Source: an uncultured Verrucomicrobiota bacterium (GTDB lineage Bacteria > Verrucomicrobiota > Verrucomicrobiia > Chthoniobacterales > JACTMZ01). Taken from it: 51,209 nucleotides of DNA. Positions 32,514-51,209 of this stretch are shown piece by piece. Under the pieces are notes generated by a model. That model was not told the origin of the DNA. It did no database searches and worked only from the letters and a program-made list of their open reading frames with translations. The stretch lies in assembly GCA_903953565.1 (NCBI GenBank), contig CAJBKE010000033.1:1-51209 (forward strand), read 5' to 3'. The translations under genes were made by a program, and so were the position numbers. Each line of letters starts with the position of its first letter. The first letter of the stretch is position 1.

Positions 32514-33722
32514 ATGTCCAGCAGCACCGGCCAACTTTTCCGCATCGCCACGTGGGGGGAATCCCACGGCGGCGGCGTCGGTGTGGTCATCGACGGCTGC
32601 CTGCCGCAGCTCGACCTGACCGAAGCGGACATCCAAAAGGAGCTCGACCGCCGCCGCCCGGGCCAGAGCGATATCGTCACACCTCGCAAAGAGGCCGACC
32701 GCTGCGAAATTTTGTCCGGGGTTTTCCAGGGGAAAACGCTCGGAACGCCAATTGCCATCCTTGTCCGCAATGAAGATGCGCGGCCGGAAGCTTACAGCGA
32801 GATGGAGACCACATTTCGTCCTTCGCACGCTGACTTCACCTACCAAGCCAAATACGGCATCCGCAACTGGCAGGGCGGAGGCCGCGCCTCCGCGCGCGAA
32901 ACCATCGGACGTGTTGCCGCCGGCGTCGTGGCCCGCAAGGTCCTCGAGGCGCTTCATCCCGGTATCGACGCGCTCGCCTGGGTCAGTCGCGTGCATCAAA
33001 TCGAGGCACAAGTCGATGTCGCGTCCGTGACCCGCGAAGCGATCGAAGCCAATGCGGTCCGTTGTCCCGACGCAGCCACGGCGGAAAAGATGATCGTGCG
33101 CATCAAAGAAGCGCGCTCGAACGGCGACTCGGTCGGCGGCCTCATCGAATGCGTGGTGCGCAATTGTCCGCCGGGCCTCGGCGAACCCGCTTTCGACAAA
33201 CTCGAGGCTGATCTGGCCAAGGCCATGCTCAGTCTGCCGGCGACCAAGGGTTTCGAAATCGGCTCCGGTTTCGAGGGAACCAAACTCACCGGTCTCGAAC
33301 ACAATGACGCTTTCGAAATGCGCGAAGGTCGGACCCGCACGACGACCAACCGCTCCGGCGGAATCCAAGGCGGCATCAGCAATGGCGAGGACATCACTTT
33401 CCGCGTCGCCTTCAAGCCGACCGCCACCATCGCGAGCGCGCAGCAAACCGTCACCGCATCCGGCGAAAACACCGAACTCGCCGCGCGCGGGCGCCACGAT
33501 CCGTGTGTCATCCCCCGCGCCGTGCCCATCGTCGAAGCGATGGTCTGGCTCGTGCTGGCTGATCACGCCCTGCGCCAGCGCGCACAAAGTCGCTCTTCTC
33601 AAGCGAACTGCGCGATCCAGCGGCAGTCGGATGAAGGATTGCTTACTGCGGGGCGGGGAGGTGGAGGCGAGCAGGGGGCAGCATTTGGACTTGGCGATCG
33701 TGGCGGGGGAGGCGGAGCGTGA
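32514..33722 (+). CDS. aroC: Chorismate synthase
   Basis: 402 residues. The enzyme makes chorismate, the branch point for aromatic amino acids, menaquinone and folate. [23 protein letters not shown] at the start, [29 protein letters not shown] and [19 protein letters not shown] near the end are hallmark segments. Normal AroC ends about 360 residues in, near HALRQRAQ. The last 40 or so residues here are a Gly/Arg-rich low-complexity tail. The tail overlaps by 80 bases the end of a convergent histidine kinase gene, so it may be a read-through artefact of stop-codon loss. Confidence 0.94.
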
Positions 33723-34830
33723 GACGAAGACCTTTGCCGGGGTCGCTCTCCAAGACGACTTCGCCGCCGTGGGCGCGGATGATGCGCTGCGTGATCATAA
33801 GGCCTAGACCGCTGCCGCCTTTTTTTGTCGTGAAATAGGGCTCGAAGACGCGGGCCATGGTTTCCTGTGTCATACCGCCGCCGGTGTCGGCAAAGGTGAC
33901 GTTGATCCAGTCGGCGTCGGCGCCGGTGCGGATCTTGAGGAGTCCGCCCTGCTTCATGGCTTCGCTGGCGTTTTTGACAATGTTGTAAAAGGCCTGCTTG
34001 AGTTGGTCCTGGTCGACGTCGAGGACGGGGAGTCCGGGGGCGAGGTCGAGTTCGAGGAGGATGTTGCGGGATTTGAGTTCGGGCGCGAGGAACTCGGCGG
34101 CGTCGCGGACGAGCGAGTTGAGCTCGTGCGGAGCGCGTTGCAGGGGGGCGGGACGGATGGCGCGGAGGAATTGGGTGACGATGCTGTCGAGGCGTTTGAT
34201 TTCCTCCTGCGCAACTTCGAGGGGATGGAGGAGGGTTTCCTGCTCTCCTTCGGGGAGTTTGCGCAAGCGGCGTTCGAGAAGCTGGAGATGGATGGTCAGC
34301 GAATTGAGCGGGTTGCCGATTTCGTGGGCCACGCCGGCGGCGAGGAGTTGCAGGGCGGCGATGCGTTCGCTTTCGAGTGTTTCCTGCGCCTCGCGGTGAC
34401 GCTCGGTGAAATCGCGCATGATCAGCGCGTAACCGGCGTGCTGGCGGTGTCCGGGTTTGTCATCGTCCTCGGCGAGGAGGGGAACGACGTAGAAATTGAG
34501 GATGCGGTGGGCGGGGTGAAAAACCTCGATGTCGCGGGTGACGATATCGCGGCCTTGGGCCAGTTCTTTCCAGCGCAGCCCGCTGATGTTTTCGGCGAGC
34601 GGTCGTCCGAGGGCGGCGGCGGGATCGAGTCCGAAGAGCATGCCGGCGGCATCGTTCATGTAGATGACCGTTCCGGCGGTGTCGGTGACGATGACACCTT
34701 CGCGGATGGCGTTGAAGATGGTCTCGAGGAAGCGCTTGTCGCGGGCCAGTTCGACAAAGAAGGCTTCGACTTCCTCCGGTTGGATGCGACGGAGGCGGGC
34801 GAGGATTTTGTCGAGGAAGGCGCGTTTCAT
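33643..34830 (-). CDS. PAS-domain sensor histidine kinase (NtrB-like)
   Basis: 395 residues, apparently soluble. After a short helical start ([13 protein letters not shown]) comes one PAS domain (about 45-165), then the HisKA box [27 protein letters not shown] (His near residue 183). The HATPase domain has N-box [10 protein letters not shown]1 TFADTGGGM and G2 GGSGLGL. The architecture resembles NtrB and the kinases that pair with sigma-54-dependent response regulators, but no regulator gene lies in the window. The long upstream frame beyond 34830 is Arg/Pro-rich and not protein-like. It is convergent with aroC and preceded by a palindrome. Confidence 0.92.
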
Positions 34831-47305: not shown

Positions 47306-47875
47306 ATGACGCTGGCCAACCAAATCACCCTGGTGCGCATTCTCCTCATCCCGGTGTTTGTCGTGTTCGCGGTTTACTACGCGGACAGCGTGCGCGGGGG
47401 CGTGGCGCAAGACTGGCTGCGTTGGTGCGCGGTGGCGGCCTTTGTCGTCGCCGCGGCGAGCGACGGACTCGACGGCTGGATCGCCCGCCGTTTCAACCAG
47501 CGCAGCGCCCTCGGTGTTGTTCTTGATCCCATCGCGGACAAGGGCCTGCTCCTCACCGCGATCATCACTCTGAGCTTTTATCCCTGGCCGGTCAGTCTGC
47601 CGCTCTGGTTTCCGGTCATCGTTATCGCACGCGATGTGGTTATCCTTGTCGGCTGCGGACTGCTCAAATTTTTCACCGGCGACGTGGAAGTGCGACCGAG
47701 TTTCCTCGGCAAAATGGCCACCGCCCTGCAGATGGCGGCCGTAGCTTGGGTCCTGCTGCAGATTCCGGAACAAAAGTGGATCGTCTGGGCGGCCGGGCTT
47801 TTTACCCTGCTCAGCGGTATCGGTTATATTTGGCGCGGCATGCACGCCATGGGAGGGGCGGCCAAAGCAGAATGA
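47306..47875 (+). CDS. pgsA: CDP-diacylglycerol-glycerol-3-phosphate phosphatidyltransferase
   Basis: 189 residues with four or so membrane segments. It makes phosphatidylglycerol phosphate, the precursor of phosphatidylglycerol and cardiolipin. The CDP-alcohol motif DGLDGWIARRFNQRSALGVVLDPIADK (about 51-77) contains the D-G-x2-A-R-x8-G-x3-D-x3-D pattern. The ATG at 47306 opens MTLANQITLVRILLIP, the usual PgsA start. The stop overlaps the der ATG (ATGA). Confidence 0.94.
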   Translation: MTLANQITLVRILLIPVFVVFAVYYADSVRGGVAQDWLRWCAVAAFVVAAASDGLDGWIARRFNQRSALGVVLDPIADKGLLLTAIITLSFYPWPVSLPLWFPVIVIARDVVILVGCGLLKFFTGDVEVRPSFLGKMATALQMAAVAWVLLQIPEQKWIVWAAGLFTLLSGIGYIWRGMHAMGGAAKAE

Positions 47876-49284
47876 AAAAAGCCGTTCTCGTCGGGCGCCC
47901 GAATGTCGGGAAATCCGCCCTGTTCAACCGTCTGGCCGGACGCCGAATTTCCATCGTCCACGACCAACCGGGCGTGACGCGCGACCGTATCGAGGCTTTG
48001 TGCAGTTTGGGTCGGGTGCCTTTCGGCATCGTCGACACCGGCGGTATCGGCGCATCGCCTGATCCCGATTTTGCCGAGGCCACGCACCGCGCGGCGGATG
48101 ATGCTCTGGAGGGTGCTGATGCGGTGCTGTTTGTCGTCGATGGAAAAGACGGACTGCTCCCCCTCGACACCGAACTGGCCGCCAAGTTGCGACGCGCCTC
48201 GCGTCCGGTCGTGCTCGTCGTCAACAAGCTCGACGACCCGAAACACGACGATCTCGAGGGCGAGTTCCTGCAACTCGGTTTCGACCGTGTGGTCGGGATC
48301 AGTGCGGTCCACGGACGCGGAACGGACGACTTGCTCTCCGCCGTGGGCGAAGCTTTCGGCGCGCAGGAACCCGGGTCAGAGCTTCCCGAAACCAAGATCC
48401 CCCCGCGCATCGTCATCATTGGACGTCCCAATGTCGGAAAATCCTCCCTGACCAACGCCCTGCTCGGACGCGACCGCGCCATCGTCAGCGATATTGCCGG
48501 CACGACGCGCGATGCGGTCGAGGTGCCCTGCGAGTTCGGCGGACGTCCCTACCTTTTGCTCGACACCGCGGGCATCCGGCACCGTTCGAGGCACAATACT
48601 TCGGTGGAAGTTTTCAGCGTCATGCGCTCGGAAGAGGCCATCCGCATGGCCGACGTTTGTGTGTTGGTCATCGACGCGCAGTCCGGCGTGACCGAGCAGG
48701 ACAAGCGCATCGCCGGCCTCATCCAAAAATCGCGCAAGGCGGTGGTTATTGCGGTGAACAAAGCCGACCTTCTCGACGCGGACTCCACCCGTCGTGAAGG
48801 TCTGAAAGAGCAACTCGCCGCTTGGCAATCGCAGTTGTTTTTCCTGCCCTACGCGCCGCTTGTCCTGCTTTCGGCCAAGACCGGCGACAATTTGAAGCGT
48901 CTCGGCACAACCGTGGAAAAAATGCGGCAGCACGCCACGCGTCGCCTCGGCACGGGCGAGCTGAACCGCGTGTTCCGGGATGCCATGACCCTCCACCCGC
49001 CGCCGATGCGCGGCACCCGCCGCCTGAAGGTTTTCTATGCCACGCAGCTCGAGGAATCCGCGCCGCGTCCGTTTGCCCCGGTAAAATTCCTGCTCTTCGT
49101 CAACGCCCCGGGGCTTCTCACCCCGACCTACGAAACGTATCTCGCCGCGCAGGTGCGCCGCGTGCGCGAGTATCCCGGGCTCCCGCTCATTTTCGAGCTG
49201 CGCGCCCGCCCCGAGTCGGAAAAGCGCGTCCGCACCCGCGGCGGCAAACGCCCGGCCAAACGTCCCGCCACGAAGCGCCGCTGA
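47872..49284 (+). CDS. der: Ribosome biogenesis GTPase Der (EngA)
   Basis: 470 residues with two tandem GTPase domains, each with the P-loop GRPNVGKS (about 8-15 and 182-189), a DTGG or DTAG switch II, and NKxD specificity motifs (NKLD and NKAD). The C-terminal KH-like domain follows. Der is essential for 50S ribosome assembly. The basic tail (TRGGKRPAKRPATKRR) is typical. Translation is coupled to pgsA by the ATGA overlap. Confidence 0.97.
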   Translation: MKKAVLVGRPNVGKSALFNRLAGRRISIVHDQPGVTRDRIEALCSLGRVPFGIVDTGGIGASPDPDFAEATHRAADDALEGADAVLFVVDGKDGLLPLDTELAAKLRRASRPVVLVVNKLDDPKHDDLEGEFLQLGFDRVVGISAVHGRGTDDLLSAVGEAFGAQEPGSELPETKIPPRIVIIGRPNVGKSSLTNALLGRDRAIVSDIAGTTRDAVEVPCEFGGRPYLLLDTAGIRHRSRHNTSVEVFSVMRSEEAIRMADVCVLVIDAQSGVTEQDKRIAGLIQKSRKAVVIAVNKADLLDADSTRREGLKEQLAAWQSQLFFLPYAPLVLLSAKTGDNLKRLGTTVEKMRQHATRRLGTGELNRVFRDAMTLHPPPMRGTRRLKVFYATQLEESAPRPFAPVKFLLFVNAPGLLTPTYETYLAAQVRRVREYPGLPLIFELRARPESEKRVRTRGGKRPAKRPATKRR

Positions 49285-49301
49285 TCGGCGTCCGCCGGAC
49301 T

Positions 49302-49316
49302 TGGCACGGACGTTGC
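49302..49316 (+). promoter_or_regulatory. Sigma-54 (RpoN) promoter of gltB
   Basis: TGGCAC (49302-49307), a 5-base gap (GGACG) and TTGC (49313-49316), preceded by T and followed by TTTT, is a perfect match to the -24/-12 consensus TGGCAC-N5-TTGC. Transcription would begin about 49327, leaving a leader of roughly 75 bases. It is absolutely placed in the der-gltB gap. No activator site was identified. Confidence 0.8.
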
Positions 49317-49401
49317 TTTTTAAGGCGCCGGGAGGCCACTTTTTCTTTGCGCCCCACACCGAAATCCATACCCTAAACGATCCGTCCGGTTCCGACCGGC
49401 T

Positions 49402-51209
49402 ATGCCCATGAAAAGACCCGCACGCCAAGGACTTTACGACCCGCAATTCGAGCACGAATCCTGCGGGGTCGGCTTCGTTGCCAACATGAAGGGTGTGAAG
49501 TCGCACTCCATCGTCGAACAGGGCCTGCAAATTCTGGTCAATCTCGAGCACCGCGGCGCCTGCGGGTTCGAGGAAAACACGGGCGACGGCGCCGGCATCC
49601 TCATCCAGATGCCCGACAAATTCCTCCGTGCCGTAACCAAAGAGGATCACATCGAGCTGCCCCCCGCCGGACACTACGGCGTGGCCATGGTTTTCCTGCC
49701 GCCGGACAAACAACTCCGCCAGAAAATCGAAGAGCGTTTTGAGCAGGTGGTCCGGGCCGAGGGCCAGAAGTTCCTCGGTTGGCGCACTGTGCCGACGGAC
49801 AATTCGACCCTCGGAGAAACGGCCAAGTCGGAGGAACCGGAGGTCCGCATGGCTTTTGTCGGACGCAACCCGGCGATCAAGGACGAACTCGCGTTCGAGC
49901 GGAAGCTCTACGTCATCCGCCACCGCCTCTTCAATGAAGTCCGCTATGCCGGAGCCCCCGGCGGCAGCTTCTTCTACATCCCGAGTTTCTCGTCCCGCAC
50001 CATCGTCTTCAAAGGCATGTTGACCACTGCGCAAGTCGCGGAATTTTACCCCGACCTGTCCGACCCGCGCATGGAAAGCGCGCTCGCGCTGGTCCACTCT
50101 CGTTTCAGCACGAACACCTTCCCGAGTTGGGACCGTGCGCATCCTTACCGCTACGTAGCGCACAATGGCGAGATCAACACCCTGCGCGGCAACGTCAATT
50201 GGATGCACGCCCGCGAGTCGCAGTTCGCTTCGCCGCTGTTCGGCGAGGATATGGAACAGCTCAAGCCGGTCGTCCACCAGGATGGCAGCGACTCGGCCAT
50301 GTTCGACAACTGCTTCGAGTTCCTCGTTCTCTCCGGCCGTTCGCTGGCGCAGGCCGCGGTCATGATGATCCCCGAGCCGTGGGCCAACCACACCTCGATG
50401 CCGAAGGACCTCCGGGATTTCTACGAATACCACGCCTCGCTCATGGAGCCGTGGGACGGTCCTGCCGCCGTGGCTTTCACCGACGGCACGCAAATCGGCG
50501 CGGTTCTCGATCGCAATGGCCTGCGCCCCTGTCGCTACTACGTGACCAAAGACGACCTCGTTGTCATGGCCTCCGAAGTCGGTGTCCTCGATATCGAGCC
50601 CGAGCGAGTCGCGCACAAAGGCCGGCTGCAACCCGGCCGCATCTTCCTCGTCGACACGAAGGAAGGCCGCATCATCGCCGACGAGGAAATCAAAGCTTCC
50701 CTCGCTAAGGAGCAGCCCTACGGCGAATGGCTCAAGGACAACTTGGTCAAAATGGAGGACCTCCCCGCCGGCGCCGACCCCGCGCACCCGGATCACGACA
50801 CCGTGACCACGCGTCAGTTCGCCTTCGGTTACACCCAAGAGGACCTCAATCTCATCATCGCCCCGATGGCCAAGACCGCCGTCGAGCCGATCGGTTCGAT
50901 GGGTAATGACGCGCCGCTCGCCGCGCTCTCCGACAAGCCCAAGCTTCTCTACAACTACTTCAAGCAACTCTTCGCCCAGGTGACCAACCCGCCGATCGAT
51001 TCGATCCGCGAGGAAATCGTCACCTCGACCATCACCACACTCGGCTCCGAGGGCAACTTGCTCGAGCCGAAACCGGAAAGTTGCCGCCAGATCCAGCTGA
51101 CCTCGCCGGTCATCACCAACGAGGAACTGGAAAAACTCCGCGTCCTCGACCGTCCCGGGTTCAAATCCGTCACACTGCCCATCCTCTATGAGGTAGCCGA
51201 CGGCGGACC
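49402..51209 (+). CDS. gltB: Glutamate synthase large subunit, N-terminal part (cut by window end)
   Basis: 602 codons are present; the full protein is about 1500 residues. It makes glutamate from glutamine and 2-oxoglutarate. The start, [21 protein letters not shown], ends in the nucleophilic cysteine (residue 21) that becomes the N-terminus after cleavage of the propeptide. [36 protein letters not shown] and [16 protein letters not shown] are the class II amidotransferase marks. The central domain opens near [11 protein letters not shown] at the window end. A 14-base hairpin (CCGGT/ACCGG, 49386-49399) lies just before the ATG, and a sigma-54 promoter lies about 90 bases upstream, which suggests nitrogen control. 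Confidence 0.95.

Follow-up and report, generated by a model that had tools for sequence, protein, structure and literature searches.

The gap between der and gltB in this uncultured member of the Chthoniobacterales contains a close likeness of a sigma-54 promoter, which raises the question of whether glutamate synthase is transcribed by the RpoN holoenzyme in this lineage and, if so, which activator is involved. The window, that is, the whole stretch of 51,209 nt analysed here, was compared with the rest of its genome and with a set of 57 related genomes. An exact TGGCAC-N5-TTGC in the 117-base gap before glutamate synthase, as claimed in an earlier note on this DNA, was confirmed (der stop at 49284, first ATG of gltB at 49402). 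The second ATG of gltB, at 49408, is the sole start codon kept in relatives, so that the true der-gltB gap may be 123 bases. The -24 element begins 17 bases past the end of der, and the site carries the invariant GG and GC of the -24/-12 promoter class. The gltB gene extends beyond the window, codes for 1532 amino acids in the contig and is followed by gltD, with NCBIfam scores of 1759 bits for the large and 791 bits for the small subunit of glutamate synthase.

Table 1. Positions of the features discussed, in the window unless a contig is named (EBP, enhancer-binding protein).
Feature	Position	Strand	Remarks
PAS histidine kinase, AtoS-like, most likely cognate of EBP-B	33643..34830	-	profile scores; neighbours in relatives
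der (EngA GTPase), upstream neighbour of gltB	47872..49284	+	Pfam MMR_HSR1 and KH_dom-like
Sigma-54 -24/-12 core TGGCAC-N5-TTGC	49302..49316	+	TGGCACGGACGTTGC; exact, 10/10 positions, N5 spacing
Extended sigma-54 block	49301-49321	+	TTGGCACGGACGTTGCTTTTT; fits the longer consensus TTGGCACG-N4-TTGC-TTTTT
Second conserved element, candidate sigma-70-type promoter	49340..49374	+	starts with TTTTTCTTTGCGCC at 49340-49353
-35-like TTGCGC	49347-49352	+	within TTTTTCTTTGCGCC
-10-like TACCCT	49369-49374	+	16-base spacer after the -35-like element
gltB, glutamate synthase large subunit	49402..51209, start 49402 or conserved 49408	+	Pfam GATase_2, Glu_syn_central
EBP-A	own contig C15, about 48602-50026 (L043:6603-8027)		directly after uppS
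EBP-B	own contig C55, about 50399-51772		normal phospho-acceptor, TDLRLG

The number of motif copies was rejected as evidence, because the whole genome (2.86 Mb) shows no excess over the reversed pattern (6 exact copies versus 5); within the window, matches with at most one mismatch are even fewer than expected by chance (2 versus a mean of 4.4 in its shuffles). Exact matches no commoner than the reversed pattern are also what we would expect if the sequence before gltB were a chance match, or an unrelated conserved sequence, with no role in sigma-54 transcription. What raises the gltB site above chance is its location and its conservation rather than the bare match. Among the 57 genomes, gltB was detected in 45, and the motif recurs upstream of gltB in close relatives, as the earlier note had proposed to check. 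More specifically, the site is kept in all nine typical members of the genus, namely eight with full upstream sequence and G004, whose contig ends near the gltB start; six copies are exact, two read TGGCACGGAsGCTGC and one (G010) reads TGGCAGGGACGTTGC. In pairwise comparisons among three divergent members of the genus, a 20-base block was 90% identical in every pair, versus 48-66% in the flanks. In G010 (L017), where der before gltB is replaced by an apparent antitoxin/toxin pair, the site persists with one change in its -24 element (TGGCAG). This genus-wide conservation against diverged flanks, the persistence of the site beside a replaced upstream gene and the equivalent sites at amtB and glnA described below make a chance origin barely credible. 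Two divergent members assigned to the genus depart from the pattern, G007 being without the gltB site and G009 without a detected gltB. Outside the genus, families f7, f8, f10 and f13 have fair-to-weak sites (TGGAAY...TTGCT and similar) some 120-210 bases upstream of gltB, and no convincing sigma-54 site was seen before gltB in families f3, f4, f5 and f6. Judged from these comparisons, the sequence before gltB can almost certainly be taken as a genuine sigma-54 promoter.

A search of the genome for rpoN and NtrC-type regulators, also suggested in the earlier note, returned both. RpoN is complete, with its three Pfam domains and an NCBIfam TIGR02395 score of 412 bits versus a cut-off of 277, and two full EBPs are encoded, here named EBP-A and EBP-B, each with a receiver, an AAA+ domain and a Fis-type HTH and with intact sigma-54 contact loops (GSFTGA/GAFTGA). 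The same genome carries amtB with glnK behind it, another PII gene and a single large glutamine synthetase (~740-775 codons), which we took to be of type III. Eight of the nine typical genus members have a sigma-54 site before amtB-glnK (TTGGCAYGG..GTTGCT; unrecognised in G004) and all nine have one before glnA (TGGCAYG....rTGCT), and the amtB site is present across most of the order; no such site was found at glnB.

We then learned a palindrome by expectation-maximisation on eight amtB upstream regions of the genus, which yielded cTGGC-N-AAATTT-N-GCCAg with a log-likelihood of 83.6 versus 23-27 in shuffles. The palindrome is often paired, the distance between the copies being about 35 bases at amtB and 29 bases at glnA, and it occurs before glnA in 9/9 genus members (p <= 0.01 each), sequences that were outside the learning set. 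Of 32 amtB promoters from other families, 15 carried it (combined p = 1.5e-12), and of the 16 gltB promoters none did (combined p = 0.93). These combined p-values are too small, since the shuffles preserve nothing beyond base composition and the sequences, being related, do not count as independent. Given this absence from 16 gltB promoters, gltB appears to be without the enhancer of the amtB/glnA type. Likewise, no strong palindrome stands at a constant position within about 1.5 kb of gltB in the genus, and synonymous conservation, used to look for an enhancer inside der, shows no rise at the der 3' end. An enhancer is usual in sigma-54 activation and not strictly required, activation without one being known at high activator levels.

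A second conserved element, downstream of the sigma-54 site and still before gltB, resembles a sigma-70-type promoter and may act as one; its TTTCTTTGCSCC and TA---T columns are kept in nine genus members, the TA---T standing 16-17 bases downstream. The arrangement is like that of E. coli glnA, which has tandem sigma-70/sigma-54 promoters, glnAp1 and glnAp2 (PMC7045595), and by analogy with glnAp1 basal gltB expression could come from the downstream element. The sigma-54 site might be bound and yet non-productive, with occupancy by the holoenzyme modulating the sigma-70-like promoter a few tens of bases downstream. Conservation of the -35/-10-like element through the genus and the lack of a visible enhancer at gltB agree with such a role, which we consider improbable, since in this genome amtB and glnA have the same promoter class with palindromes in front, so that the class probably serves activation, and since the full -24/-12 consensus with its T-tract suggests a productive promoter. 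The claim that nitrogen assimilation in this lineage is switched by RpoN was therefore retained in part: RpoN and the nitrogen genes are present, and the sites at amtB-glnK and glnA widen the claim to a regulon, whereas "switched" goes beyond the evidence, given the conserved sigma-70-like promoter and the absence at gltB of a visible amtB/glnA-type enhancer.

In order to identify a candidate activator, we examined the two EBPs. EBP-A has the domain order of NtrC (receiver, sigma-54 activator, Fis-type HTH), and its best NCBIfam model is ntrC over the full length, at 477.7 bits, below the TIGR01818 equivalog cut-off of 558.6. It may work like NtrC, yet it lacks two formal marks of that protein, the phosphorylatable Asp and a score above the cut-off. 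Its phospho-acceptor position is Glu in 77 of 79 readable Chthoniobacterales loci, the other two having Asp; within the genome set, Glu stands there in 29 of the 30 orthologues. This Glu aligns opposite the phospho-Asp of a solved NtrC-family regulator. The receiver retains its first acidic residue and its active-site Lys, and has Gly at the Thr/Ser switch position in this genus, against mostly Ser elsewhere. Glu at the phosphosite of NtrC acts as a mimic of aspartyl phosphate (Klose et al. 1993, cited in PMC4395418). The D54E form of the NtrC-like NmpR is active in Myxococcus (PMC6211767). The change from Asp to Glu alone is often insufficient to activate a receiver, and among natural Asp-less receivers Glu is the commonest substitution, at 26% (PMC4395418). 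Because Glu replaces the phospho-acceptor Asp, we infer that EBP-A is probably phosphorylation-independent and outside control by a kinase. Asp-bearing orthologues occur in L359, L389 and G052, those of L359 and G052 being apparently one protein, and would be natural controls for the Glu form.

EBP-A was found in most of the 57 genomes. It was undetected in family f9, f13 genus g20, G007, G009, two 0.9-Mb genomes and the less complete genomes G031 (84% complete), G038 (86%) and G046. Among genomes with amtB, a strong amtB site was present in 34 of 39 with EBP-A versus 2 of 10 without it (Fisher p = 1e-4), and the reversed motif reached the threshold at amtB in none. Three lineages lack both EBP-A and the amtB site (f9, f13 genus g20, and G007 with G009), and f13 genus g20 and G007 are also without the gltB site; the exceptions are G031 and G038, which have the amtB site and no detected EBP-A. 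With the tree taken into account, the association was not significant (median p 0.625 in a sign test on 5 independent pairs, too few for this purpose), and on the kinase tree it comes to about three clean joint absences. The evidence that EBP-A tracks the nitrogen sites is suggestive, short of proof. In f9, neither a gltB match nor EBP-A was found in any of the six genomes (G018, G028, G036, G044, G051 and G056), and in each the glutamine synthetase is of the common short type, in place of the large form seen in the genus of the window. At 89-95 bases before EBP-A there is a stretch resembling the palindrome; it sits in the conserved WPDF codons of uppS, and for that reason we did not read it as evidence that EBP-A regulates itself.

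The window also encodes a histidine kinase, which had been described as NtrB-like and partnerless, and neither attribute was supported. It scores 102 bits with the NR(II) model, whose cut-off is 240, and 253.5 bits with the AtoS model, higher than with NR(II) and below the cut-off of 646. A linked ntrC, a mark of NtrB, is missing beside it, and the partner seen in relatives is EBP-B, which in the present genome lies on another contig. Indeed, in 11 genomes of other families, the kinase orthologue adjoins an EBP-B-like EBP in nine and stands within about 2 kb of one in two, and these EBPs are 60-68% identical to EBP-B versus 39-43% to EBP-A. As the orthologues are neighbours, the kinase is most likely that of EBP-B.

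This pair could itself drive the gltB sigma-54 promoter, as a conventional two-component system separate from EBP-A. Such an assignment would fit the missing EBP-A-type palindrome at gltB, the normal phospho-acceptor of EBP-B, the adjacency of kinase and EBP-B genes in relatives and the distance of 15 kb between the kinase gene and gltB in the window. The distribution of the pair points elsewhere: the kinase is present in 57/57 genomes, including lineages without gltB or nitrogen sites, every lineage examined that has no EBP-A, 0.9-Mb genomes without gltB among them, has an EBP-B orthologue, and f13 and G007 lose the gltB site where EBP-A is missing although EBP-B stays. The reduced 0.9-Mb genomes G017 and G027 keep the AtoS-like kinase and EBP-B without detected gltB, amtB, glnA or EBP-A, suggesting that the pair serves something else. 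We consider control of gltB by EBP-B unlikely, and the window kinase has no demonstrated place in the gltB circuit.

We favour, with a probability of roughly 0.6, the reading that the gltBD sigma-54 promoter is functional and belongs to a small regulon with amtB-glnK and glnA, whose activator is most likely EBP-A. RpoN holoenzyme would sit on the -24/-12 element, to be opened by an AAA+ activator, putatively EBP-A, a lone NtrC-like protein with predicted DNA binding. At amtB and glnA, EBP-A would act from the upstream TGGC-N-AAATTT-N-GCCA palindromes; gltB, where that enhancer is not seen, would be activated either by EBP-A in solution or by EBP-A at a site that escaped recognition. Nitrogen control might enter by another input, for example the amount of EBP-A or the binding of GlnB/GlnK. 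Tentatively, and with the balance slightly against it, nitrogen assimilation in the Chthoniobacterales may be run by an NtrC relative that has lost both its kinase and, by a natural Asp-to-Glu change, its phosphorylation switch, and that is controlled otherwise, gltB having joined through a sigma-54 promoter without the usual enhancer.

RpoN-dependent glnA and amtB are classic, and RpoN control of nitrogen is well known in Proteobacteria; to our knowledge, it has hardly been studied in Verrucomicrobia. Like the proteobacterial NtrC/RpoN regulon (glnAp2, glnK-amtB), the present system has RpoN, an NtrC-like AAA+ activator, -24/-12 sites at glnA and amtB-glnK, and palindromic enhancers about 50-100 bases upstream. 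It differs in its orphan activator with a Glu phosphosite, in the inclusion of gltB, in a candidate NtrB that is rather the AtoS-like kinase of another regulator, and in an enhancer unlike the NtrC site (TGCACC-N5-GGTGCA). Glu at the phospho-acceptor recalls the NtrC D54E mutant and ChxR of Chlamydia, a natural Asp-less receiver. Unlike in D54E, the Glu here is natural and nearly fixed over the order in a sigma-54 activator, and ChxR, unlike EBP-A, is an OmpR-type regulator without an AAA+ domain. The window kinase and EBP-B resemble AtoS-AtoC in their best NCBIfam matches and in the neighbouring position of their orthologues in relatives, and differ in scoring well below the equivalog cut-offs and in the separation of the two genes from each other in this genus.

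For the verrucomicrobial methanotroph Methylacidiphilum, ntrB and ntrC are listed, with no promoter mapped in the part of the source that treats them (PMC3404531). Our searches of the open-access literature met with neither a verrucomicrobial sigma-54 promoter at gltB nor an NtrC-like activator with a natural Glu across an order. A specialist would expect the promoter, and less so the Glu conserved in the probable activator of the nitrogen genes or a gltB promoter without the amtB/glnA-type enhancer. The wiring would be a natural counterpart of the laboratory NtrC D54E kept over an order and, if true, would pose the question by what route nitrogen status is relayed to the promoters in the absence of phosphorylation. 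For experimental tests, the regulon, its palindrome and the candidate for its activator are sufficiently well defined.

Finally, a sigma-54-like site recurs before the gene of a secreted barrel-like protein of about 326 amino acids (L054, 1501-2569, and also L050, L059 and L065), which has no Pfam or NCBIfam match. Three of these loci (L050, L054 and L065) also have, about 71 bases upstream, a palindrome of the EBP-A type, reading GTGGCGGAAATTGACCAC in two of them, and the protein is a possible outer-membrane member of the regulon.
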